Shown: positions 8,574 through 55,800 of the stretch, piece by piece
Numbering within the stretch: the first letter of the stretch is position 1
Layout: each line of letters begins with the position of its first letter
NCBI GenBank assembly: GCA_030867875.1
Contig: JAOWCC010000577.1
Span: 94,345,740-94,409,739, forward strand
Direction of reading: 5' to 3'
Source: Actinernus sp. WN-2022
Taxonomy: Eukaryota > Cnidaria > Anthozoa > Actiniaria > Actinernidae
DNA length: 64,000 bases
The notes under the pieces: model-generated
The model's input: the letters and a program-made list of their open reading frames with translations, nothing else
Told to the model about the DNA's origin: nothing
Databases searched by the model: none
Position numbers and translations under genes: made by a program

Positions 8574-8634
8574 ATGAATGAGTTGTATGTTCTGATAGCA
8601 TTCAACCTGTTATGCTTCGCACATCAAGCAGTTG
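8574..8634 (+). CDS. Exon 1: start codon and signal peptide
   Basis: The start MNELYVLIAFNLLCF gives a short hydrophobic signal peptide, and the exon ends at a strong GTAAGT donor in phase 1. A good 3' splice site (TTCTGTTCACAG, about 8544-8555) lies just upstream of the ATG, so a separate non-coding first exon upstream is likely. It was not located. Confidence 0.8.
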
Positions 8635-14600: not shown

Positions 14601-17600
14601 CCTCAAAGCATCCCAATGGATTTTAGTTATCTATTCATTTCACAAGTAGTTTACAACATTCGCGTGGGTGTTGTATCATCCTTTATAATGTGTAGTGCGC
14701 TGCGCGCACTTGAAATTGTAAAGGCTGATACAACACCCCGCTCATGTTGTAAACACTACTTATAATACTATTAATAATTAATAAGGATGTTAACCAATCT
14801 AAACGCAGCATTCAAGTCACATGGATAACCCTGTAAATCCCATACACGATTCTAGTTAGCTTAATTAGTATTCTGTATCATTTGATACAGAATACTAATA
14901 GAGCCTAGTAACTACGCTTCCGTTAGTATGAGGGAGGACTCACAACCGTTCACTGACCTCCCCTATCCCGGGCCGGAAAAAATGAGAAGGTAGAACTCCT
15001 GTCTTGTCATGCATACAGACCGTCTCACCAATGTGGCACCTGTTTGTGCACGCTGCGCATGTCCATGACGCATCCTATAGCGCTGAACTCATATTTGTCT
15101 CTTTCCATCAATATGTTAGAAATGTTTTCAATAGGCCTTTTGCAGGAATACAATCACGTGTTTGTACTGGATGGCAAAATAATCATATATTTAAAGGCAC
15201 TTTGGCGAGATCGGTAGTGTTATTAGCAAAACCGGTTTGTAAATGCTATTTTCCACCTCCAATTGATTGTCGATCTTTCTAAAACAGCGTTTTAAAAGAA
15301 AGCTTGCCCTCCAGCATCCATGGCAATGCCTTTCCCATGGGGATCACGAACTCGATTCATTCGTCAAACGAAGAATTATATCAGCACGTGACTATATATG
15401 TGCTACAAAAGGTCTTTCTTGTATAGTTCATATGATAAGTACATTACAATAATCGGATATACGATGGCTCGCCCAACGGCTCGCCATTGTATATCTGATA
15501 CAACACTGATTTATAAAATATCAGCGTTATTCAGATATACAATACTGATATTTTATTAATCAGTGTTATGTCCGACAAACACTATGCTAATGTCTGAGGG
15601 AGACTTAACAACCGTCTAATCAATGTGGGGCCTGTTTTTGTACACTGCGCATGTCCGTGACGCAAACTATAGAGCCGAACTCTAATTATTTTACGTTTGC
15701 CATCAAAAATGTTTTTTTATATATTACATTTTACTTACCGCCATTTCAGGTATTTCAACGCAAGGCCAGGCAATGTTTGATAACTGGGTAACGAGTTACA
15801 CCATATCCTACTCCACGAATGGGACCACATGGAAGAACCTAAAAGAACATGGAAAAATCAGGGTGAGGCGAATGCGGAAAATATGATTATTTAACGCACG
15901 TTTTACCAGATACCACGAGTTTTTCAATATTATAAAAATACCATAACCCCTCGACCAACGATAGCTGCCAGAAATGTTTTAGTTTCCATTTCATTAAGTA
16001 CAACAAGGAAACAAAAAGAACAAGATAGGTGAAGGGTGCATGATGTACAACCCAAAAGGGTTAACAAACTCATGCTCCTTATGTGTTTACAATGTATAAA
16101 TATTGACATGATTTAACAGTGTCGTTACACGTAAGTCAAACAGGAGTATTTATAGTTAGTAATAGTAAAGTTTGTAACACTATCAATTAATTAATACTAT
16201 TTTCCAATGGTAACAGTAAAATAAATAAATATATATATATATATATATACGCAAACACACAATGTGTCGTAATAAGTAGTACGTATGTCAGGATAAGAAA
16301 ATGAGATGTTTTATAATATTTTGTTGATGTACAATTTGTTTTATCACGGGGATATCATTCCAGATTTTAGCTCGCAAAAGCTGGCCCCCAATACCACACA
16401 ACTTGACTTGTACACTATTTAAAGAGAGATAACTCAATCTTAAAAACGAAAAATACTGCAACAGAATTTGGTAATGGTAGCGTGGTTCCCACTAGTGACA
16501 TCAGTACCAAAACCATATATATATATATAGGTAAATCTTTAATATGCATAGGTAAAGTACTTATCTATGTTACAATTGATGTGGTGATATATTAAGAAAT
16601 ATAGCAATAATAGAAGGAATATAAATCTGAATGCGCTTACATGTAAGTAGGAAAACTATATGGGCAAACCATATTTAAAAATTAATCTATTAATATAAAT
16701 TAATGTTCTTGAAGCGTTCTGTGTTTATACTCTGGGCCTGGCGCTGGTTTTATTCCGTTAAGCATAAGTAGTAGGTTTAAACTTAGGGATTATAGATCTT
16801 AGCGGGTGCGAGGACTTTTTTTAAAATACGCGTGTCGCTATTTTCCAAGTTGCTGTAAATTGAGAACAGCTCCGAGGTGTACTTTCGTTTATAGCACCTC
16901 TTGAGAAAGCGCTGAACTGTACTGAAGTCGGACTCGCTTGCACCATAGACCGATAAACCGTATGTTAGCTTAGACAGGACAAAAGACTTAAAGAGATCTA
17001 TTTCTTGTTCATTGCAGCTCTCTTTCCTTAAATTGCTGATAACAAACAGGCATTTATTTGCCTCCTTAAGCTTCGCCGCAACATTGGAAGAAAATTTACA
17101 ATCAGACTGGAAAGTTATACACAGTATTTTCAGCTCATTATACTGTACTATGTTGGAGATCGTGTTAAATTGCCTGGTATGTCCTTTCTTTCTAAAAGTC
17201 AGAGCCTTTCGTTTAGATGGGTTGCAGGCCATTTCATTAGAGGCGGACCAGGACAAAAAATGGTTAACGGCCAAATCAGAAATATCTGGAGCATTTCTCT
17301 TCACAACAACCTGTAGATTGGAGTCATCTGCATACTTAATAAGAGATGTTTGACAGCTGTCCATTGTCTCTAGGTTGTTCATAAATATCGTAAACAAATA
17401 CGGTCCACTGACACTGCCTTGTATAGTAACCTTTGTTTATCGACGATAACCATAACCATAATCGTAATTATAGCCATAATAATATTAATAAGAAAGTTAT
17501 TAATGTCTATACTTACGATAATAATTATGACCTTCGTCACTAGGGGGAAACAAGTCAAGGAAAGTAGTTGAGCATTTTTGTTCATAATTAGGTCTATGAT

Positions 17601-20600
17601 TATGATTATGATCATCAGTCTTATGTCGCTAGTGGGAATCAAGTATTTATGTCGGACTGATGATTACAGCCCGGTTTACACGATAAGTATTTTGGGCCCG
17701 GAAATCGTACATTTTTCGTACGCGTGCCATTTCTTTCGGCACGGCACCCCTTATTTTTATCGTGTAAATGGAAATGTTCCGGGTACGCGTGTGAAAGGTA
17801 GTCTCGGCTCGCATGTTTGCAGGGGCGTAGCAAGGCCATTTCAAGTTGTACGCACAAGTGCAGGAGCTACCGGTGTTAAGGGCCCCCTCTCGTAAAACAA
17901 ATACAAGGCCAAACAGGGAATTTTCGTCTCAAAGTGTACGCACGTGCGTATATGCGTACAGGAAGCTACACCCCTGGTTTGGAGTGCCGTACCCAAGATG
18001 CTAGTCGGTTCTCGTGAATACTAATAAAAGTTGCAAGAATTTAAGCAGTTTGATTTGATTTTAGTAATATTTGCTTCATTTTAGAATTTCACTGGGAATA
18101 CAGACAGGAGATCAGTAATTACTTACTGGTTTCCAGAAATTATGGCAAAGACAATACGAGTGCGGCCACTATCATGGAATGGGCTTACGAACTGTATGAG
18201 AATAGAGCTGTATGGATGTATAGGAGGTAAGTTAATGAGTGCGACGACTATCATGGAATGGGCTTACGAACTGTATGAGAATAGAGCTGTATGGATGTAT
18301 AGGAGGTAAGTTAATGAGTGCGACCACTATCATGGAATGGGCTTACGCACTGTATGAGAATAGAGCTGTATGGATGTATAGGAGGTAAGTTAATGAGTGC
18401 GACCACTATCATGGAATGGGCTTACGCACTGTATGAGAATAGAGCTGTATGGATGTATAGGAGGTAAGTTAATGAGTGCGACCACTATCATGGAATGGGC
18501 TTACTAACTGTATGAGAATAGAGCTGTATGGATGTATAGGAGGTAAATTAATGAGTGCGGCCACTATCATGGAATAGGCTTACGCACTGTATGAGAATAG
18601 AGCTGTATGGATGTATAGGAGGTAAGTTAATGAGTGCGACCACTATCATGGAATGGGCTTACGAACTGTATGAGAATAGAGCTGTATGGATGTATAGGAG
18701 GTAAGTTAATGAGTGCGACGACTATCATGGAATGGGCTTACGAACTGTATGAGAATAGAGCTGTATGGATGTATAGGAGGTAAGTTAATGAGTGCGACCA
18801 CTATCATGGAATGGGCTTACGCACTGTATGAGAATAGAGCTGTATGGATGTATAGGAGGTAAGTTAATGAGTGCGACCACTATCATGGAATGGGCTTACG
18901 CACTGTATGAGAATAGAGCTGTATGGATGTATAGGAGGTAAGTTAATGAGTGCGACCACTATCATGGAATGGGCTTACTAACTGTATGAGAATAGAGCTG
19001 TATGGATGTATAGGAGGTAAATTAATGAGTGCGGCCACTATCATGGAATAGGCTTACGCACTGTATGAGAATAGAGCTGTATGGATGTATAGGAGATAAG
19101 TTAATGAGTGCGACCTCTATCATGGAATGGGCTTACGAACTGTATGAGAATAGAGCTGTATGGATGTATAGGAGGTAAGTTAATGAGTGCGGCCACTATC
19201 ATGGAATAGGCTTACGCACTGTATGAGAATAGAGCTGTATGGATGTATAGGAGGTAAGTTAATGAGTGCGACCACTATCATGGAATAGGCTTACGCACTG
19301 TATGAGAATAGAGCTGTATGGATGTATAGGAGGTAAGTTAATGAGTGCGACCACTATCATGGAATGGGCTTACGCACTGTATGAGAATAGAGCTGTATGG
19401 ATGTATAGGAGGTAAGTTAATGAGTGCGACCACTATCATGGAATGGGCTTACGCACTGTATGAGAATAGAGCTGTATGGATGTATAGGAGGTAAGTTAAT
19501 GAGTGCGACCACTATCATGGAATGGGCTTACGAACTGTATGATAATAGAGCTGTATGGATGTATAGGAGATAAGTTAATTTTCTACTTTTCCTTAGGCAG
19601 TCGAAGATATTTAAGGCTGCTACTGATATATAACAATAACTTACTTGTGGCGTTGAATTATTATACAAATAGTGTGTCTGTCGAGGGACTATCGGCTGAT
19701 AGTTGCCCGCGGGAATGTGATATTCTTAAAACAAATATAAGCCCGAGAACGCATTGTAGTTTTAGGACATCAAATCTCCAAGGGAAACTATCAGCCGTTA
19801 TAGTTCACCACAAAAGTTTAGCGCGCGCTCATTGGCTAAAAGCGATCACGTGATGAAAACTATCAGGCGATAGTGCCCGCTGAGAGCAATGATGTGATGA
19901 ACAATAACGACAAATAGAGTGTGTTTGTCTCGGAACTATCGGCTGATAGTTTCCCTTGGAAATTTGATGTTCTTGAAACTTGCATATAAGCCCTATATTT
20001 GTTTTAAGAACATCACATTTCCGCGGGCAACTATCAGCCGATAGTTCCTCGACGAGAGTCTATTTGTATAATAGTCCCGAGGCAGAAACACTATTGTTTT
20101 CATTGTTCAACAGAAATGCTTAGATAGTGTCCATGCTGTTCTCTTCTCGTTATGTCCGCGGACGAAATATCAGGGCATATTTCGACGCCACAAATAGGTT
20201 ATTGTATTTATAGTGCCAAGTGGTGGGCCAATGATAGCGCGCGAAAATTATGTGGTGAACTATAAGCACTGATATTTATCCGCGGACATTATCTGTTCTG
20301 AGAAGCAAACAGTTTTCGAGAGCAAAGCTCGAGGATAACTTCGAGTTTGGAAGAACAGATACCCAAGGACAAATATCATGTAGTTCATATTTCAAAACCA
20401 CAAATTAAGTTATCTTTATAATCCTTCAAATATTTTCTTGTACGGGAGCCCTGTGTTCGCTGAATGATATTTGTCGTCTGGCGGAAAGCAGTTACCGGGT
20501 CACGTGACCCATTCCACCAATCACGCGCGAGTAAACAAATTTGATTGATTATAAACTGTCAGATCTTAATTTTACATTTGAGACTAATCTGTAGCTTGAT

Positions 20601-23600
20601 GGCGCAACTAATGGTTCTTAACCGTAGTAGAAACAATGTTTCAAATCAAACTCTTCATAAAAGAGCCTAAGAAAGCCTACTAGAAAGCTAAATGGCGCAG
20701 TTACTGTACTTCATGTTCTTGTGTTTATTTACCATGATCAACAGGCTCTGAAAAAGATTTTGCAGCGCTTAAGAAGAAAGGTAAGACGATATACTATTCG
20801 ACAAGCCATCAGAATTTAAGATACGATGAATCACTCAGCATGCTTATGTATTTGCAGTCACCTCAATAGTTTGAAGTTTAAAGAACCCATGCATATTTTA
20901 GATAAAAGCAGTTGATGTACATATTACTGCAAACGAAAAAGGGGAGTGGTTACGTTTTCTTTCGAGTTATCCATTTAGTTATGGATATTGTGGAAATATT
21001 ATTTTATAGATTATATTGGGAGCCAGTTGATAGTCAAGAGGGCTGTGTAGCAATGCACTATTTTATATCCGACACAAAACAAAATGTCAAGGTCGCCATT
21101 AACACTACGATATCTACTTCAATTAGCGATAGCATCGGTACTACTACAAAGAGCACCTCAAAATTAGTCAAAATCCCAAATTTCATAGTTATATCTTGAA
21201 TGTGAGCAAAGATACAGTCGCACAAAGTAAGACAATTTTACATACATTTGTATGCGGGGGTGCAAATTGTTACACCCCCTCATACAAATGTCTGTAAAAA
21301 TAGCGCACTTTACTTGACTATATCTTGGCTTCTAGGTGAGATATAACTCCCAAATTTGGGTTTTTGACTAATTTTCAGGCGCTCTTTTCAGTAGCACCGG
21401 TGCTATCGCTAATTGAAGTAGATATCGTAGTGGTAATGGCGACCTTGAAATGGTCTATTTTCAACGATTTTCATGCTCAAGAGCAGACCTCGCGAACATG
21501 TGGAACGGTTCAAATCAAAGCGCTACAAAAACCGTGTGAAACCCTATTATTCAAAAACAAATATTGCCGCATACTCCATCAATGTAGTGTCGAAAGAGGA
21601 GTTTTAAAATTGTGTAGTCAACTAAATGTCACTACTCTAAAAAATACACCACGTGAGCGCAATATCATTACCGTTTTGTTTGAAGACCCTTTGGCGACCG
21701 TTACACTTTGCGTGACTCGAGCTAATTTCGTATGATATGACATTCCAAATAAAAAAAAGCATAAAAAACAATAGCGATATAACTTAGTATTGTTTTAGTA
21801 TTCCCAGTAGGTATGTAACAATAGCTATAGCCTCGCAAAGCATGACGGTCCACATAGGATATTTAAAATAGCTGATATTACAGTACAGTGGCGTTTACGA
21901 ATAGCAGTACTGTATTCGTAGACGCAACTTTAATATCAGCTAAGAACAGGAGCACTGAACGTCAACCAATGTAAAAAGGTGTTAATTTTACATTCTTCTT
22001 TCTCGTAATTTCATTGGTTGATACTCGTACAATCAATAAAAAAAAAACAAGGCAATATATTTTCGTTAGATAATTTTTGATGTTTCAATTTAGTTTTGAT
22101 CAAACTACTTCTGGTCTGATTTCAAAGAAAATCGTTATTGGGGAAAGTTCTCAAATCTGTGATTCAAATATATTTTGTCCCTCTCCGATTGGCTGGATGG
22201 TATTTTGTTTCAGTTTTCACAGCAAAAATGACCAACAGCGTACAGTTACCTTTATTAACTTTGACTGTGGACATCTCTTACAGCACATTCAAGCAAAATC
22301 GTATTTGGGAATTGCTCATTACTGCACCCTATTGTCTTTTGCTCATGCTCTTTGGCGAACCATTACTTAAACATAAAATATTCTTCTAGCAAAAATACGA
22401 AAGAAAGAAAAGCAGATCATCAACACAAAGCTAGACTCGGCGTCATCGTCAAGTAAGTTTCAATTAGTGTATTTCTATTAGTCACTTATTATGGTGCTTT
22501 GTTGTAATTTCTGAAAAGCGATACTTACTACACGTCATCCATTGTCATTAATGTGCCAACCAGAGATCCATTATGGTTGGTACATTAGCATAACAATTGT
22601 AATGTTTATCAACACGAAGTATCGCTATAATATAAATTACGGAAGCATCCTAAGAACGCGCGATGGGCTGCTCAGCGTGCTTGATTTTCTTATAAACACG
22701 CTCGTGTATTTGTTTCCTCGTAGATTGAGTTTTATATTATTAAACAAATAGAAGATGGTTCCCGTATGTCCTATAACAAAATAATGCACTTTCAAGGTCT
22801 TGGAAAGCTACTAATGCACTCGCGTTCCACTCGTGCATCCGCGGTTTTTTAAAGTGCCCCTAAACCCTTTTGCAATTTATATATATATGAAACTTTGAAA
22901 GGTTTTGAGTACTTCTGCGAAGAAATGTTTGGCTTACAGAGAATACTCGATGTTCTAGGCTTGTTTGAAATGGTGAAAATGTGACCTCTCCTGACCCATT
23001 ACCGTGTAAGAAAAAGCCTGGGTCGATTCCCTATCTTACGTCACCTCATTAATGCATTATTGTCCATGACGCCTTTCTATCACAACAGCATCGATATATA
23101 GAGAATATACACAGTCTGTGAGATTTTAGTAAAGAAAACAGCTAGTTTAGACAAAATGCTAAATATTTATTCAAGTTATTGCAAAGTCGAATGCATTGGA
23201 TGACGTAAGATAGTGAATCGACCCAGTCTTTTTCTTACAAGGTCATGGGTGAGGAAAGGTCAAATTTTCACCATTTCAAACAAGCATAGAACATAGTGTA
23301 TTCTCTGTAAGCCACAAATTTCTTCGCAGAAGTATTCAAAGCCTTTCAAAGTTTCATATATATAAACATTGCAAAAGGGTTTAGGGGCACTTTAAGACCC
23401 CGAGCGTGCATGATTTTGTAATACAACATGGAAAACGCATCACTTGATGCCAACCAGCACCTCGTTTTCTGTCGGCGTTAATGTTATTCCTAATTTGTAC
23501 AGCTATTTCTAAAAGGTTTGTCTCGTGCATGTTGCATGTAAAAGATAAAGCAACCCTATTTAACGTCGGTAACTCGTGAGTCTGGTGAGACTGATAAATT

Positions 23601-26600
23601 TGAGGCCGACATGGGTGCTACGATTTTACGTCCTTATCCGAGAAGACGTGAAGATCTAACCATTTGCAATCCGAGAACGAGATTATTTCACAAAGGCAGC
23701 ACCTTCTACTCATTATTTTATGACCCTCAGTGTTGGTCCGGCCGGGATTTGAACCCGCGACCCTCTGCACATGAGACAGGCGCTTAAACACTGAGCTAAC
23801 CGGGTGAGCTAACCGGGAGATTAATTGCATTGTGCGATCTAAGTAGAATAATTAATATTATGTTGAGCCTCTTTATCGAAGTCTGCCTGTGCTATAGGTT
23901 TAATGTTGCAGTGTGTGTGCGCATCATACTTATGTATTTGCAATAGTCTTATGTTTAAGAAAAGTCCAAACGTTTATATATATTTCTATTTACTGTTCCT
24001 TTACTACCTCCTTCGCCTTGTAGTTATCGACAAGGCCGTGGTATATCTACGCTTCGAGAAAATCGTCAAGAACAACATCATACGGGATGACTCCGATCTA
24101 CACAACGACGCGAGAATAGTGAACTTTGCTCGCCTATCACGATTCAGCCAAAAGTGTGGGAGAGGTGTTGACCTCAATGGCGGCGATATCCTTCTCAACG
24201 GAGAGCGATTCGTTAATAAGCCACGCGAAGCTATCACAATTGCGGCATGGGTTAAACTATTCACAGTAGATGGACCCAATTCTATTTTTGATACAATCGG
24301 AGGGATGAACTCGACGCATAGAAATGGCCAGTACCATTTTGAAGTTGACGGAGGGTCAGTTCGGTGGTTTCATAGAAATGAACATGGAAACATCATATTT
24401 AATGTTACAACGGAAGTAATCGTGCCTGCCCATATATGGACACACGTAGCTGGTACTTATGACGCCAAAACGAGACTTGCGGAAGTTTATGTGAATGCAA
24501 AATTTCTCATGAGGGAGGAAGGGTCGGGAGAATTGTCGCAGGATTGGCAAGACAAAGCAGGGATTGGGGAACATAAAGGTGAACGGTTGTTGGATGGTTT
24601 GTTGGATGAATTTTTTATCTCTGATAAGGCATTGACTCAAGATGAAGTAAAGGAGCTAATGAAGCAATGTGAATTTGAAAAAGGTAAGCCTGAACCTTCT
24701 AAGTTCGAATGACTGGCAGCTGTAGAACAAATAAAGTGTTTAGCAATACATTTAAAGGAGCTGTGTCATGGTAACAGGCCTTTAATTTCGCAGTCCGGGC
24801 CATACACAATTATTTTCAGCGATTTTCATTTCAACTGACGAACCTCACACATGTGGGATGGTTAAAATAGCCAATTAACATACACCACTCGAGCGATGAC
24901 TCATGACATACTGTGTGATGGAGAGAGGCCTTCATATGTGCAGTCCGGACAGGACACAGTTATTTCCAGCGATATTCATATGAACTGACGAACTGACGAA
25001 CCTCGCGGGATGTGGGATGTGGGATGTGGGATGGTTAAAATCAAAGCAAATATGCAAAAATAACCAACTGTGTATAGACATAGTCTTCAAGGAATATATT
25101 GCATATAATTTCAATCAAGCATCGAGGCAGGAGACTTTAACTGTTTGTAGTCAATTAATAACAACCACCAATCGGATATTGAATCTAGACATGCGCAACA
25201 CCATAGCTCTTTATTAATACTATGGTTGAGAGCAAAAAGCTAATGCTCCAGTCTCAAGAGCATTGTCAAAGAAATGTCTGGTCAACCTGGCAGTGTAAAT
25301 ATTCTGGAATAAAAGAGCACATTCATTGATCATAGCCAAGAACCAATCAGAAAGCGAGAAATTTGGGTTTTGTTGTAAAAACAATTGGTCCTTAGATTTA
25401 TCACGCAACGGCCATGTTGCATCCCGGGAGAATAAAACCATTGTTCTTGCACTTCCAAACTCGACACAGAGACGAGGCTGGAAGTGCAAAAGCTATAGCG
25501 TGATAAAGGTCTAATGCATACTGTTAATACTCTCGTTTACTCGATAATTACCTGAATTACCTATCTCTCCAGAGTGCTTTAATCCTATTGGAATGGAAGA
25601 CATGAAGATCAAGGATGATCAAATCACAGCCTCGTCTACGCTTCAGCCCCATAAAGCATACTACGGCCGGCTGAATCTCATATCATTCTATGATGACCCA
25701 AAAAGAAGTGCATGGTGCTCGGACGACGACGATAAAGAGCCGTACATCACTGTAGACCTGAAAGATGAAATGACAATATCAGGAGTGGCAATACAAGGTG
25801 CTTCCGTGACGGATAGTTTCGTGACGAGTTTTAAGTTGTGTTACAGTCACAGCGGGAGGAAGTATAATTGCGTGACCGAGAATGGGACGGGGGAGGTAAG
25901 AAAAGCTGAAACCGCTTAGATTACAATAGAACAAACGTTTCCGGGTTCGTAACTGTTGCTGGATTCATCACATGTAGGGTATTCGGATGCGTACAACCTT
26001 TACACTATGAAGGTATTCGGATTTGATCGTGCCAGGAGCCCATAACCAGGAGCGTCCATATCTCCTACATAGCTGTCACAGCGTTTTCACAAGTTGGACA
26101 ATTTTGTACTTCATTGTTGCTGCCAATTAGTGGGTTGTACCAGTGGCGGAACAAAATATGCCTCATTAGGGGAGCCGGGGTGGCGCTTCGCCTCTCACCT
26201 CTGTGGCCAGGTTCGATTCCCGGACGCGGCGCCATGTGTGAGTTGAGTTTGTTGGTATCTCGCCCTTGCTCCGAGGGTTTTCTCCGGTTTTCCTCCCTCC
26301 GCAAAAAAACAACACGCTAAATTCCAATTCGATCTGTGGATTGGCCGGGACCTGGCTTTGATCAGCCCCCATGGTTGTTTCAGGTCTCGTTAGAAATTCA
26401 GAGTTGTTTTTGTAGCTACTTTTGTTATACCAACATGTCTGCTACGCTTTTGTAATTTTATTCCCTTAGGAATGATTACAACCCAAGAATAGCGGGGAAC
26501 CGTTCTAAAGATAACCTAACTTAAAAAAACGCTGTGACATAGGCCTAGTATGCGGGATGGACGCTCCTAGTTATGTGCTCCTGATCGTGTACACTACACT

Positions 26601-29600
26601 GATAAATTCAGAGACAGATGCGTGCAGCAAACACCTGTACCATTCACAACCTAAATACGTTGTCAGTTGCCCCATTGTGGTTACTGGAACTGTAGGGACA
26701 AAACAACTCTAATAACCAGAGAACACAACACTCCGTTCCTTATGCTGCCATTGTTGTTTTTGTTAGTCTCATGACCGGCGCGAAGCGCCAGAAGTTCGGC
26801 GCGAAGAACTTCGCGAGGCTTCTAATTGAGTTCATAATTGTTTAGCCTCCCACCCACCTATCACCCATTTAGATATCAATGACATCAGTTGCGATATGTT
26901 GTATTTTATTGTAACGTCTCAATGGCACAATTATTTATCGATAGTTGTCTCTCAATGAAATACTTTAGAGTTCTCTAATTAAAATCACCAGTGCTCAGCC
27001 ATTATTTCTTGCTCTCAAATAATTTACTTTATTTTAGGCCCTGTTGGGTAACGATGACAAAGACAATATCAAGATACACTGGTTAAACAGGTTTTTCGAT
27101 GCCAGATACGTGCGGTTTTATCCACTGTCCTGGTACGGAGATAGTATCTGCATGAGAACCGAACTTTATGGATGTATTACTGGTTAGTGAAGCTTATAGT
27201 TGTCATAATGCTGCACCCCGTATTTAGGGGGCTGCGATGGGTGCGTATAATCAACCCCACCCCCCATCCCGACAGATCGATAAAATGTGGAATACAAAAA
27301 TCACCTTCTCGTGGTTTGTTTTTGTTTTATTCCGCCGAATAGTTAGCGCAAACCACTCTATACACATAGAAAATAAGGAAAATTGCAAAAATATTCCAAT
27401 ATGCGTGTTGCTTATTCTGGAAGCAAATACTATTTCAGAGATCTTAGATTTTTAACATTTCCCGGGGATCGGCATGCCCCCACCCAACCCTAGCAAGGGA
27501 GTGGCAGCTCATAAGGAAGGTGTACGCGTACGGTGGTCATCGCTGAGGGGGTGGGTGGGTGGGACGCTGACCAGAGCACTCCGGCCGTTATAACGATATT
27601 AGGGACTTTAAGATACCACGACGGCAACGTCGACGGCAACGCGGTGAAACAATGGACTTAATTACAAAATACAATAACTGCACGCATGTAGCTGCTTTTA
27701 TTTTAGCCGTTGTCTGCAAAAACACGACGTGAAAACGCTGAGTTTACGTTCCGTAGAGAACGAGAACCTGAAAACGTAAATGGCACTGCTATTCGTTCGG
27801 CCTAATCGGAACTCTGTACACACTCTATTTTTCGAAAACGTGGATGAGAAATGCAACAAAAGTCGAAGAAAAGAAACGATAATAAACAAATTATCGATAG
27901 CACCATTTTTCACATCACGTCGTCGCAACCGTCGCCGTCGTTGTATCTTAAAGTCCCTATTATATGCTAGCACGACAGAGCTAGAGATTGTGAAATACCT
28001 GTCCCATGGGTGATATTGGCTACGAGAACTCTAACAGGAGTTAATTGTTAATTAGGACGTTTGCGCGTACTGGCTAACAGTGAGAATAGTCTCGTTAATG
28101 AAGTTTTCTGAATATTCAACTCTGACATTCTTTACCCTCGGTCTTAATGCATATTGGTGAATATGCGTTTCGGTAATATTCACCAGTATCCTATAAATAC
28201 TATATTTCAGCCAATCAAAGCTCAGGGCTGTATTTCATGGCTTTTCTATGAAATACAGAGCGATATTTCATGGCTAAATGAGGCCATTCGAAATGCAGGA
28301 AATTTAGCGTCATTCCTTTGTCAGCCAATAAGAATTCAATAATTTTGAATACATAATTAGTCTGCAGACGTGTCCGCCACTCAAAACTTTTGTTTTCTGA
28401 GACATTTCGCAGTCTATCGTCCGCAGTTTTCGTGGTAAATCTTCCCGTAAATTTGTAGTCTTAGAATAACATGAAAATTTCATACCAAATAATACAAATT
28501 TCTCGCCCGTATTCCATTGGAAATCATGAAATAACCAATAAATATGAACTTCGACTTCGATGAATAATTGTTAATTAAAATGGTACTAACACTATATATT
28601 CAACTCGAATTTGTTATCAAGGTCTGCTTTCAGACACATTGGAGAGTTACATGGAGACAGAGATCGACCCAGCAGCATCCCAGATGGCAGACTGCAGTGT
28701 TAGTTGTGGCAAGGGAACCATTCGCAGGGTAACCCCATGTACAAAGAGGAAAGAGCCAAAGTGTTTGCCGGGAAAGAAGAAATATGTGCATAGAGTGCCA
28801 TGCGTAAGACCAAGTTGTCCAGGCAAGATATTCATTATATTAGAAACAAGGGCGCAGACATATTACAGTGTGACTACTGAAACCAGGGCCACTTAGACAA
28901 CGAGAACTACACACATTGAAAAACGAAAATAAAGCATTCCAAATACAAGCGTATCATTGTGATTTTCTTCATTCGAAAGACATTGATTTCGTAACTAGTC
29001 CACCAAATTTGCCTTTACCGGATCGAAGCTCGAGCAAGTTGAAATGCTATTGTTTTGTGCTCGACGCTGATTGGCTCAAATAACCGTAAGTTGGAATGCT
29101 TTGTTTTCGTTCTGCAATGTGATTGGTTCTTGTTGTCTGGCCCCAGGTTACAGTAGTTGCACAGTAAAAGTTCCACTGTGATCAAAAGTGACTTTTTTCT
29201 GCTCTCTTCGGATTTTGAAAGTAAAAGTACTATATACTTACCATGCGAACTCGTAAGTCGAAATTCCTATGGGAAGTGCGATTATTTTAACCGTAATTTC
29301 CAGCTCCGACTGTCCGCCATTGTTTGGTTGGACTGATTAGGTAACGTCATCCAATCTACCCAAGAAAACAAACATGGATGCTTTAGTATACAGAAATGAA
29401 GAGTGAGCATTGTATATTTTCAAAGTTGAAACCGTAAATATAGCCGCATAGTTGTTGTGTCGTGTTGATTGATCGATATCACGAACAGACGCCTTTAGCA
29501 AGGAAGATGCGTTCGTTTGAAAACTGAGTAATGGCGGACGGTTTTTCACGTTAATGCGGTTTACTTGTTGGCTGGGTTAGCGATTCGTATAATTTTGGAC

Positions 29601-52800: not shown

Positions 52801-55800
52801 ATAACAGAACGAGTCTTAGCAGCTCGCGTCTATTGTTCTACTGATGCGTGCGCAACATCGTCAAAATGGCCTATTCGATCGGTGGTTTAGCCGGGTACTG
52901 ATTTTGATCAGCCCCTGTGGTTGTTTCAGGTGACTTTGATCAGCCCCTGTGGTTGTTTCAGGTGACTTTGATAAGCCCCTATCGTTGTTTCAGGTGACTT
53001 TGATCAGCTCCTATCGTTGTTTCAGGTGACTTTGATCAGCCCCTATGGTTGTTTCAGGTCATGACTTTGATCAGCCCCTATGGTTGTTTCAGGTGACTTT
53101 GACCAGCCCCTATCGTTGTTTCAGGTCATGACTTTGATCAGCCCCTATGGTTGTTTCAGGTGACTTTGATCAGCCCCTATGGTTGTTTCAGGTCCTGACT
53201 TTGATCAGCCCCTATGGTTGTTCCAGGTGACTTTGATCAGCCCCTATGGTTGTTTCAGGTCCTGACTTTGATCAGCCCCTATGGTTGTTTCAGGTGACTT
53301 TGATCAGCCCCTATGGTTGTTTCAGGTGACTATGATCAGCCCCTATCGTTGTTTCAGGTCCTGACTTTTGTTTCAGGTGACTATGATCAGCCCCTATCGT
53401 TGTTTCAGGTCCTGACTTTGATCAGCCCCTATGGTTGTTTCAGGTGACTTTGATCAGCCCCTATCGTTGTTTCAGTTCCTGACTTTGATGAGCCCATATG
53501 GTTGTTTCAGGTCCTGACTTTGATCAGCCCCTATCGTTGTTTCAGGTGACTATGATCAGCCCCTATCGTTGTTTCAGGTCCTGACTTTGATCAGCCCCTA
53601 TGGTTGTTTCAAGTGACTTTGATCAGCCCATTGCCGTGCTGTTTCAGCCGCCTGCAAATCGCTGTCTCCTCTACTAACTATGCTGGCATTCAAGGCGTCT
53701 CTAGGTGTTCACCTTGGTTTTGTGCCTCCAGGTCTTTTTGTCTTTCCCATTTTTCAAGTCACACAAGAAAACTAGAACAACCAGCTATATTAACATTTTC
53801 TCGATGCGGCGCGAAGCTTTGATCGGAAATCAACATTGGCGGGAAATCTTGACAGATAGTTGAACTGTGATGAGAAATGATGGGCAAGAGCTCGTTAATT
53901 GTTGGAGAGGCAGGGCTTCAGATTTCACGCACTTTTCTACAAAATGCTATTTTCTACGCTTTCGATTTTCAACCAAAAATAGAGTTTTAAAAAGCTCCCA
54001 CTCAAGAGGAATTTGGTCGATTTGTTAGAAATTTTCACAAAATGTAACTTGATATCTCCGCTGCAAAAGGGTGTCGGGGAATTGGAAAATTCTAAAAATA
54101 GAGCTCTTGACGGCGTTTTCCGCAAATCTACTCTGATTATTTTTCGCCTTTTCACGGAGAGCATGTTAACTTTTGAACTAAATCGAATTTTGAAATTCGC
54201 CGACATGATTTTGTAATACGATTCCTCTGAAATACGACAAAGCAAACAGATTTTAAAACTTTAAAATATTTTCGGAGTCGGAGCTTCTGAAAGCCATCTC
54301 ACTAGATCCGAGAAACGGGATCGCGGAAAATTCGAGATTTTCAAAAACTCAAAACTTTTTATGTATTCTTGTAGCCAATTTTATAACCTTTAAAATGATA
54401 CATGGATGATTTATCTACGATGTTTCTTCGAGGCGCTACATAATTTAGACTGGAAACGCACCCTGAAGGTATCCGGTAACATTAAAGGGGGAAATAAAAC
54501 GACCTTACAGGTTGAAAAAACAAATACAGGGCTAGAAAAGTTTGGTTGTGAAAGAGCAGATTTCATATGAGTGGGACAAACTACAGCACGGTTACTGTAC
54601 GACATGCCGTCACATTGAAATGGTGTCCCTATTGTTTATGTCCTGCTGATCCAATCAAACTACAGAGATACAGTACAGCATGGTTACAATACGGTTACGG
54701 ACATGCCGTAGTTTGTCCCACTCATACGAAATCTGCTCTAGTGTAAAATGGTACTAAGTGATTGAGATTTCAATGAACAGAGTTTTATGTTCAGAGCTTG
54801 ATGTTAATTGATTAGCCTCATTTTCGTGATTTTCCTAGTTGATATCTTTGCAGATAAAAGCTGATACCTTTGCAGGAGTTGAAGTCCACACTATCACACC
54901 TTCTCAGTATTTCTTACTATGGCATGCTCTAATAAATGACTGACTAGCCTCATCGTCGTGATTAGGGCAGCAAGATTTGCATAAGGTCTACCGTACATAT
55001 ATATTCTGTTGATGATTAAACTAAACTCAATCGTTATAATTTCAACATAGGTAGTGACCAACTCGAAAGCGCTCATTACTCTGGCCACTGCACACAAGTT
55101 TTGTAGTTCTCCTCTCTATTAGTGTTGCACTTGATATTCCTTTATTGTATTTTCTGTAAACAGTGAGAAATAAAACTTGATCTTACCAGTAGAGATGACA
55201 ACTTCGCTTCATAAATATCAATTATTTCCGATGCCTTCGGATCTTTGATCTGAAATAAAAGATATGAAAAAGGGTTATGTTCCTCACCACATTTGTTAGT
55301 ACTCCAGCTGTCTTCATCATTCTATCATTCTACCATTGATACCTACTACATGTACCTACTACAATCACAACACTCACAACATTGCATTCCACACACAAGT
55401 CGATTTCCCTCTTTCTTAATGTCACATCAAACAAACTTATTTAATTCCAGGCATGGAATTTTGGTATTGTGTTTGCACATGCGCGTGGAGTAGCCTGCGA
55501 ACAGACTCATGGGAAGAGGGGAGGAGAAGAGGGAAGGCCTGCACGGATGCTATACAAATGTGAATTACACCCCTACATTGCTCCATCATTAGGCTCGGTT
55601 CAGACACTGCTCCACTCGTGCCGAACGCAATTGAAACAAAGGATAATAATTTGGCGGCTTTGTTTATCTAATTGGGTTCGGCACATGAGTGCAGCGGTAT
55701 CAGAAACGGGTCAAGTTATCAAGTATAATTACCACGTGAAAATACTTCATTGTAGAATGGACCAGTAGGAGTTTGCGTCGAAAATTTAGATGCAGATATT

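Follow-up and report, generated by a model that had tools for sequence, protein, structure and literature searches.

A minisatellite that repeats an exon end and its 5' splice site 18 times in an Actinernus PLAT-F5/8C gene, one of two such arrays seen in this genome and probably incidental

When a gene carries its 5' splice site many times over, which copy is used, and does the repetition serve the gene or is it merely tolerated? This question is raised by a locus of Actinernus sp. WN-2022 in a stretch of 64,000 nucleotides of one contig (the window), where the end of an exon and its donor recur as a minisatellite. The original prediction left two readings side by side: a splicing rheostat, with copy number setting the dose of full-length protein against a short form, and a tolerated accident.

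The host gene starts at 8574, and its exons 1–13, which were modelled, form an open frame of 804 aa. On this frame, Pfam places PLAT at 24–124, F5/8C in two stretches (the best at 168–298) and Laminin_G_3 at 404–547; exon 13 resembles a TSP1 repeat in the alignment to Acropora cervicornis P0001, the top of 38 matches for the host protein, with 56% identity over 96% of the query. Exons 14–16 were placed by eye, the end of exon 16 being uncertain, and later exons by homology only. The gene probably continues past exon 13, judging from a GC-type donor at 28822 and from later exons matching P0001 up to about 44.6 kb. This apparent donor of exon 13 reads CAG/GCAAGA (here and below, a forward slash marks the exon–intron boundary). 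Past it, an in-frame stop at 28896 and an AATAAA at 28928 offer the gene a possible alternative end, with a protein of 804 aa. Exon 7, whose last part the array repeats, encodes the end of the first F5/8C domain, and the introns on its two sides measure 2222 and 2518 nt.

8574–44622, plus strand: host gene, with PLAT, F5/8C, LamG, F5/8C and TSP1-like exons, then more F5/8C, TSP1-like and LamG exons (end approximate)
18085–18226, plus strand: exon 7, 142 nt as set by donor 1, phase 0 in and phase 1 out (gene model; Acropora P0001 aligns across it)
20745–20780, plus strand: exon 8, 36 nt, phase 1 to 1, skipping of which would keep the frame (gene model)
18158–19579, plus strand: 79-bp minisatellite of 18 units, each the last 69 nt of exon 7 plus GTAAGTTAAT (TRF, unit alignment)
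18237–18631, plus strand: units 2–6, repeated as units 8–12 with 1 difference in 395 bp (unit comparison)

Intron 6 contains, at 16783–17436 on the minus strand, a 217-aa open frame that by eye resembles a fragment of a LINE-type reverse transcriptase. Intron 7 contains nested inverted repeats at 19680–20299, one pair with 60-nt arms that are 95% complementary, which are probably miniature inverted-repeat elements.

TRF describes the array with a period of 79, 18.0 copies, 96% matches, 0% indels and a score of 2662. Unit-by-unit alignment gives 18 full units of exactly 79 bp each, free of indels, with nine variable columns and ten distinct unit types in the order ABCCDEFBCCDGHEICCJ. An indel-free array of 18 units at 96% is plainly not chance. 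The 79-bp period, about 18 copies and the repetition of the exon end together with its donor had all been predicted and are borne out; the locus was also placed correctly, but with its ends off by 3 and 4 bases. Units 2–6 recur nearly unchanged as units 8–12, and identity between array units is highest at a lag of six (98.4%, top of 16 lags tested), which points to a probable recent duplication of a block some six units long. A 240-base array query against the 1.39-Gb assembly DNA (best candidates only, very common words skipped) returned eight matches, all within the array, and thus no haplotype or paralogue copies.

The donor reads GGAG/GTAAGT in 14 of the 18 units (1–4, 6–10 and 13–17). The other four carry a weakened form, GGAG/GTAAAT (units 5 and 11), or a dead one, GGAG/ATAAGT (units 12 and 18). 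The GT is kept in 16 of 18 units, which agrees, as far as sequence can tell, with the claim that about sixteen keep a functional-looking donor.

18224–18232, plus strand: donor 1, GAG/GTAAGT, the sole frame-keeping donor of the array (in-silico translation, donor scoring)
18540–18548, plus strand: weakened donor of unit 5, GAG/GTAAAT (unit alignment, donor scoring)
19014–19022, plus strand: weakened donor of unit 11, GAG/GTAAAT, a copy of unit 5 via block duplication (unit alignment, donor scoring)
19093–19101, plus strand: dead donor of unit 12, GAG/ATAAGT (unit alignment, donor scoring)
19567–19575, plus strand: dead donor of unit 18, GAG/ATAAGT (unit alignment, donor scoring)

By parsimony, the donor of unit 12 was lost after the block duplication. 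On a position-frequency table, the strong, weak and dead forms score 11.7, 7.3 and 1.1, the eleven other modelled donors of the host gene 6.0–12.2. The corresponding U1 pairing energies are −10.7, −6.9 and −4.0 kcal/mol. In the rest of intron 7, the sole donor scoring at least as high as the weakest of the gene is at 20222. Selection on the array donors is unsupported by column variability, since the donor columns show no better conservation than the rest (2 of 9 variable against 7 of 70 elsewhere; Fisher p = 0.27), although nine variable columns give this test little power.

Only donor 1 of the 18 donor positions keeps the frame in silico. Splicing from the donor of unit 2 would lead to a stop in exon 8 after 332 aa, and splicing from those of units 3–18 to a stop at the second unit's own donor, after 331 aa. 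The predicted product of a later donor comprises a signal-like N-terminus, PLAT, one F5/8C domain and a common tail of 27 or 28 aa. These translations uphold the earlier claim that only the first donor gives the full protein and that the others truncate it after the first F5/8C domain. Nonsense-mediated decay of mRNAs with many exon junctions past the stop is an established rule. Many exons follow this stop, and the sense strand of intron 7 (18227 to 20744) contains no AATAAA or ATTAAA, which argues against a stable short mRNA made by intronic polyadenylation; the later-donor mRNA therefore fits a target of nonsense-mediated decay.

The likely explanation is an incidental array in which donor 1 is dominant and normally used. 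A tandem duplication across the exon 7/intron 7 boundary of this secreted PLAT-F5/8C-LamG-TSP1 gene would have founded the array, and unequal exchange, including the duplication of a several-unit block, would have expanded it into an 18-unit minisatellite within a minisatellite-rich genome. Whenever a duplication spans a 5' splice site, copy 1 of the exon and its donor would stay intact. With a short exon 7 and more than 2 kb of intron on either side, exon definition should choose donor 1, resulting in full-length mRNA. Splicing now and then from a later donor would generate one common frameshifted product of 331–332 aa, the mRNA of which, keeping many downstream exon junctions, would be cleared by decay. 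The array may thus be close to neutral, costing no more than a slight loss of dose.

Experiments with competing donors point in the same direction. According to the excerpted text of Carranza and colleagues (PMC9225289), the upstream one of near-equal donors is favoured in long introns, and in minigenes with two identical strong CAG/guaagu donors and long flanking introns it is used exclusively; these minigenes offered two competing donors, as against sixteen here, and were assayed by transfecting cells of a model system. The authors also cite classical in vitro work in which the intron-proximal donor is favoured. The main doubt comes from the downstream edge of the array, where an acceptor-like tract could promote intron-defined splicing over a short distance from late units.

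19575–19596, plus strand: acceptor-like TTAATTTTCTACTTTTCCTTAG directly after the array, a candidate site (sequence)

That such an array can simply be tolerated is backed by a second one in an unrelated gene, and the corresponding half of the original prediction is the one favoured here. The genomic background was sampled in 24 stretches of 10 kb on the same contig (240 kb in total), 20 of them at 9-Mb spacing, two at half-steps and two adjoining ones about 26–46 kb upstream of the window. Across this sample, TRF reports 32 non-overlapping arrays with a period of at least 20 and at least three copies. Of the 86 arrays with a period of at least 15 in the window and 22 stretches, 5 carry in their unit a donor-like site with a score of 9 or more, and only two of the five have at least three copies, namely the present array and one in the stretch L026. 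The remaining stretches, L031 and L032, were checked for donors by eye, and the survey covered 5' splice sites.

L026, 1705–2180 (G000:C1312:140000000-140009999): array of 14 units of 34 bp at the end of a tyrosine-phosphatase-like catalytic-loop exon (TRF, sequence)

The L026 exon (1629–1736) reads GVPASYPDLLAFMEEVHSCHKQQDPEAHRPIVLHC, with the donor CAG/GTGAGA, and the array copies its end. The next exon, at 2807, restores HCSAGVGRTG, which we take to be the tyrosine-phosphatase signature; the Pfam match of these exons to Y_phosphatase has E = 0.045, below its cut-off. The donors contain GTGAG in 12 of the 14 units, one reads TTGAG and the last GTTTGG. From this last unit we infer an original donor CAG/GTTTGG (score 4.5), which was replaced by the stronger CAG/GTGAGA (11.3) arising at the duplication junction. 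Donor 1 alone gives a stop-free joining; a later donor would stop within the catalytic signature, which leaves no plausible short form. Assuming a donor every 3–10 kb, 0.2–0.7 exon-end arrays would be expected among the 32, and the one found is near chance expectation. Among the six arrays with at least ten copies, one exon-end case against 0.02–0.07 expected is a hint against pure chance placement, although it is one event and the cut was chosen afterwards.

The present array spans a modelled exon end and its donor (gene model, homology) and repeats this donor in most units, 16 of 18 with GT and 14 in the strong form. It belongs with the known exon-boundary donor VNTRs of ABCA7, CBS and IFI6, from which it differs in its longer, mostly exonic unit. 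The IFI6 minisatellite has a unit of 12 bp that, unlike the present one, keeps the frame, its downstream donors giving isoforms. The repeat units of IFI6 (6-16) act as splice donor sites (PMC4526556), as those of the present array could, and the report of this donor minisatellite (Turri 1995) is cited in PMC2572611, PMC3618361 and PMC2915984. The nearest anatomical match is the 31-bp VNTR of CBS, c.1444_1467+7(16_21), with 16–21 copies; by coordinates its unit has 24 exonic and 7 intronic nt, and its period is likewise 1 mod 3, but the unit is shorter and the repeat is polymorphic in people (PMC2630376), whereas the present array was read from one assembly.

The array of ABCA7, in the excerpts of its report (PMC5954066), consists of 25-bp units, 23.7 repetitions in the reference, the first bases of which are the exon 18 donor. 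It shares with the present array a donor in the unit, a period of 1 mod 3 and a second-unit donor leading to a frameshift and a stop; its unit starts at the GT and is intronic, whereas 69 of 79 nt are exonic coding sequence here. The second-unit donor accounts for 2 ± 1%, the retention of one unit being out of frame and not length-dependent, and cycloheximide increases the transcripts that carry premature stops (PMC5954066). Internal tandem repeats at human exon–intron boundaries also lie across exon ends and alter splicing in recent duplicates, but their effect is novel intron formation, and the excerpted text does not describe them as donor arrays (PMC2812944). A search of literature titles and abstract starts found no cnidarian donor array, which is no proof of absence, most subscription papers lying outside its scope. 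By analogy with the human genes, the locus is most likely a tolerated repeat with its first donor used and not a purpose-built switch. The periods 79, 34 (L026), 25 (ABCA7) and 31 (CBS) are all 1 mod 3, which may be chance.

The analogy with ABCA7 also suggests a different effect, in which array length does not change donor choice but instead reduces expression or makes skipping of the following exon more frequent; here, skipping of exon 8 would remove a 12-aa linker without truncation. Skipping of exon 19 in ABCA7 rises with VNTR size, 3.2-fold between the smallest and the largest, while expression falls (PMC5954066, in part), and the title of Lievers 2001 ties the CBS VNTR to reduced CBS activity. 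In silico, the frame over exons 1–15 stays open when exon 8 is skipped, alone or with exon 9; skipping exon 7 leads to a frameshift and a stop. The ABCA7 array, however, is rich in GC and, its authors propose, may hold protein binding motifs (PMC5954066); the sequence here is different. The length effects were measured in ABCA7, and the present array is known from one assembly. We regard this explanation as unlikely here, even if length-dependent effects on downstream exon skipping or expression are possible by analogy. That alternative transcripts of ABCA7 together, mostly with exon 19 skipped, exceed the canonical one in 90% of the samples of one brain region (PMC5954066) implies that such arrays can sit in heavily misspliced genes.

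A rheostat, in which many equal donors compete and copy number sets the ratio of the full-length to a short PLAT-F5/8C form, is improbable. The retained GTs, the 14 strong donors and the convergence of all later donors on one product would suit it, as would a short protein predicted in Montipora foliosa, P0039 (311 aa), which has only PLAT and F5/8C. P0039 ends four residues past the closing cysteine of the F5/8C domain. Aligned with the long form of Acropora, it shows 81% identity across 309 columns, and it could represent an isoform, part of a gene, or a gene model that stops within the intron. With such a protein predicted, a short form may serve some purpose. Searching with the truncated product returned five matches, the best being P0039, which is without the tail peptide. 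A search with P0039 gave six: itself, three PLAT proteins of 420–440 aa and two 179-aa proteins (83% identity over 23% of the query and 50% over 46%). The rheostat is opposed by the exon-definition data favouring the upstream donor (PMC9225289) and by the length-independent use of the second-unit donor in ABCA7 (PMC5954066), both seen in excerpt. The low-power column test also shows no donor conservation, the lack of AATAAA and ATTAAA in intron 7 would make a short mRNA a decay target, and the same architecture occurs in the phosphatase-like gene, where truncation looks useless. Regulation by donor competition, the other half of the original prediction, is thus unsupported.

An assembly artefact, in copy number or in the array's very existence, is highly improbable: tandem arrays are assembly-prone and the copy number comes from the assembly alone, but the ten unit types include private and block-shared variants, the array sits in a 190-Mb contig, and the 240-base query, best candidates only, found one locus. 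It is scarcely credible that each AG/GT also acts as an acceptor, a second splice removing whole units and correcting a wrong donor as in UBC, where AGGT arrays make whole-unit introns (PMC10809524, in part): AG/GT ends 16 of 18 units at unit spacing, as in the tandem array of UBC, but the UBC monomers are in-frame coding units whose sites are also acceptors, and pyrimidine tracts are poor here, with a share before the AG of 0.41 (unit 2 only) against 0.53–0.82 in the gene's 12 modelled acceptors.

With an incidental array and a dominant donor 1 as the preferred reading, the single locus is probably without consequence for the animal. Natural arrays of 12–16 near-identical donors offer an in vivo test of exon definition favouring the donor nearest the upstream acceptor, and two independent arrays in one genome suggest that more may exist, comparable gene by gene. 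It is doubtful, and rather a speculation, that exon-end donor arrays form a recurrent, length-polymorphic class in unrelated genes of this minisatellite-dense genome, their turnover retuning splicing and dose of the host genes.

RNA hairpins hiding the donors were also considered and rejected: the folds of two units are no more stable than those of shuffled sequence (z −0.18 and −0.15; −1.15 for a shifted unit). For 150 nt of exon 7 including donor 1 the folding z is −2.48, with 4 of 200 shuffles as stable, partly owing to a hairpin upstream of the array, and in its predicted fold an exonic CUUAC pairs with donor 1. In a longer folded stretch, the donors of five of six units have an unpaired probability of 0.25–0.33, against an average of 0.40, and unit 5, with its weak donor, has 0.69. 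Elsewhere in the window, another minisatellite (52899–53629) contains a recurring acceptor-like TTGTTTCAGG, and the same words occur near 26350 outside any array.
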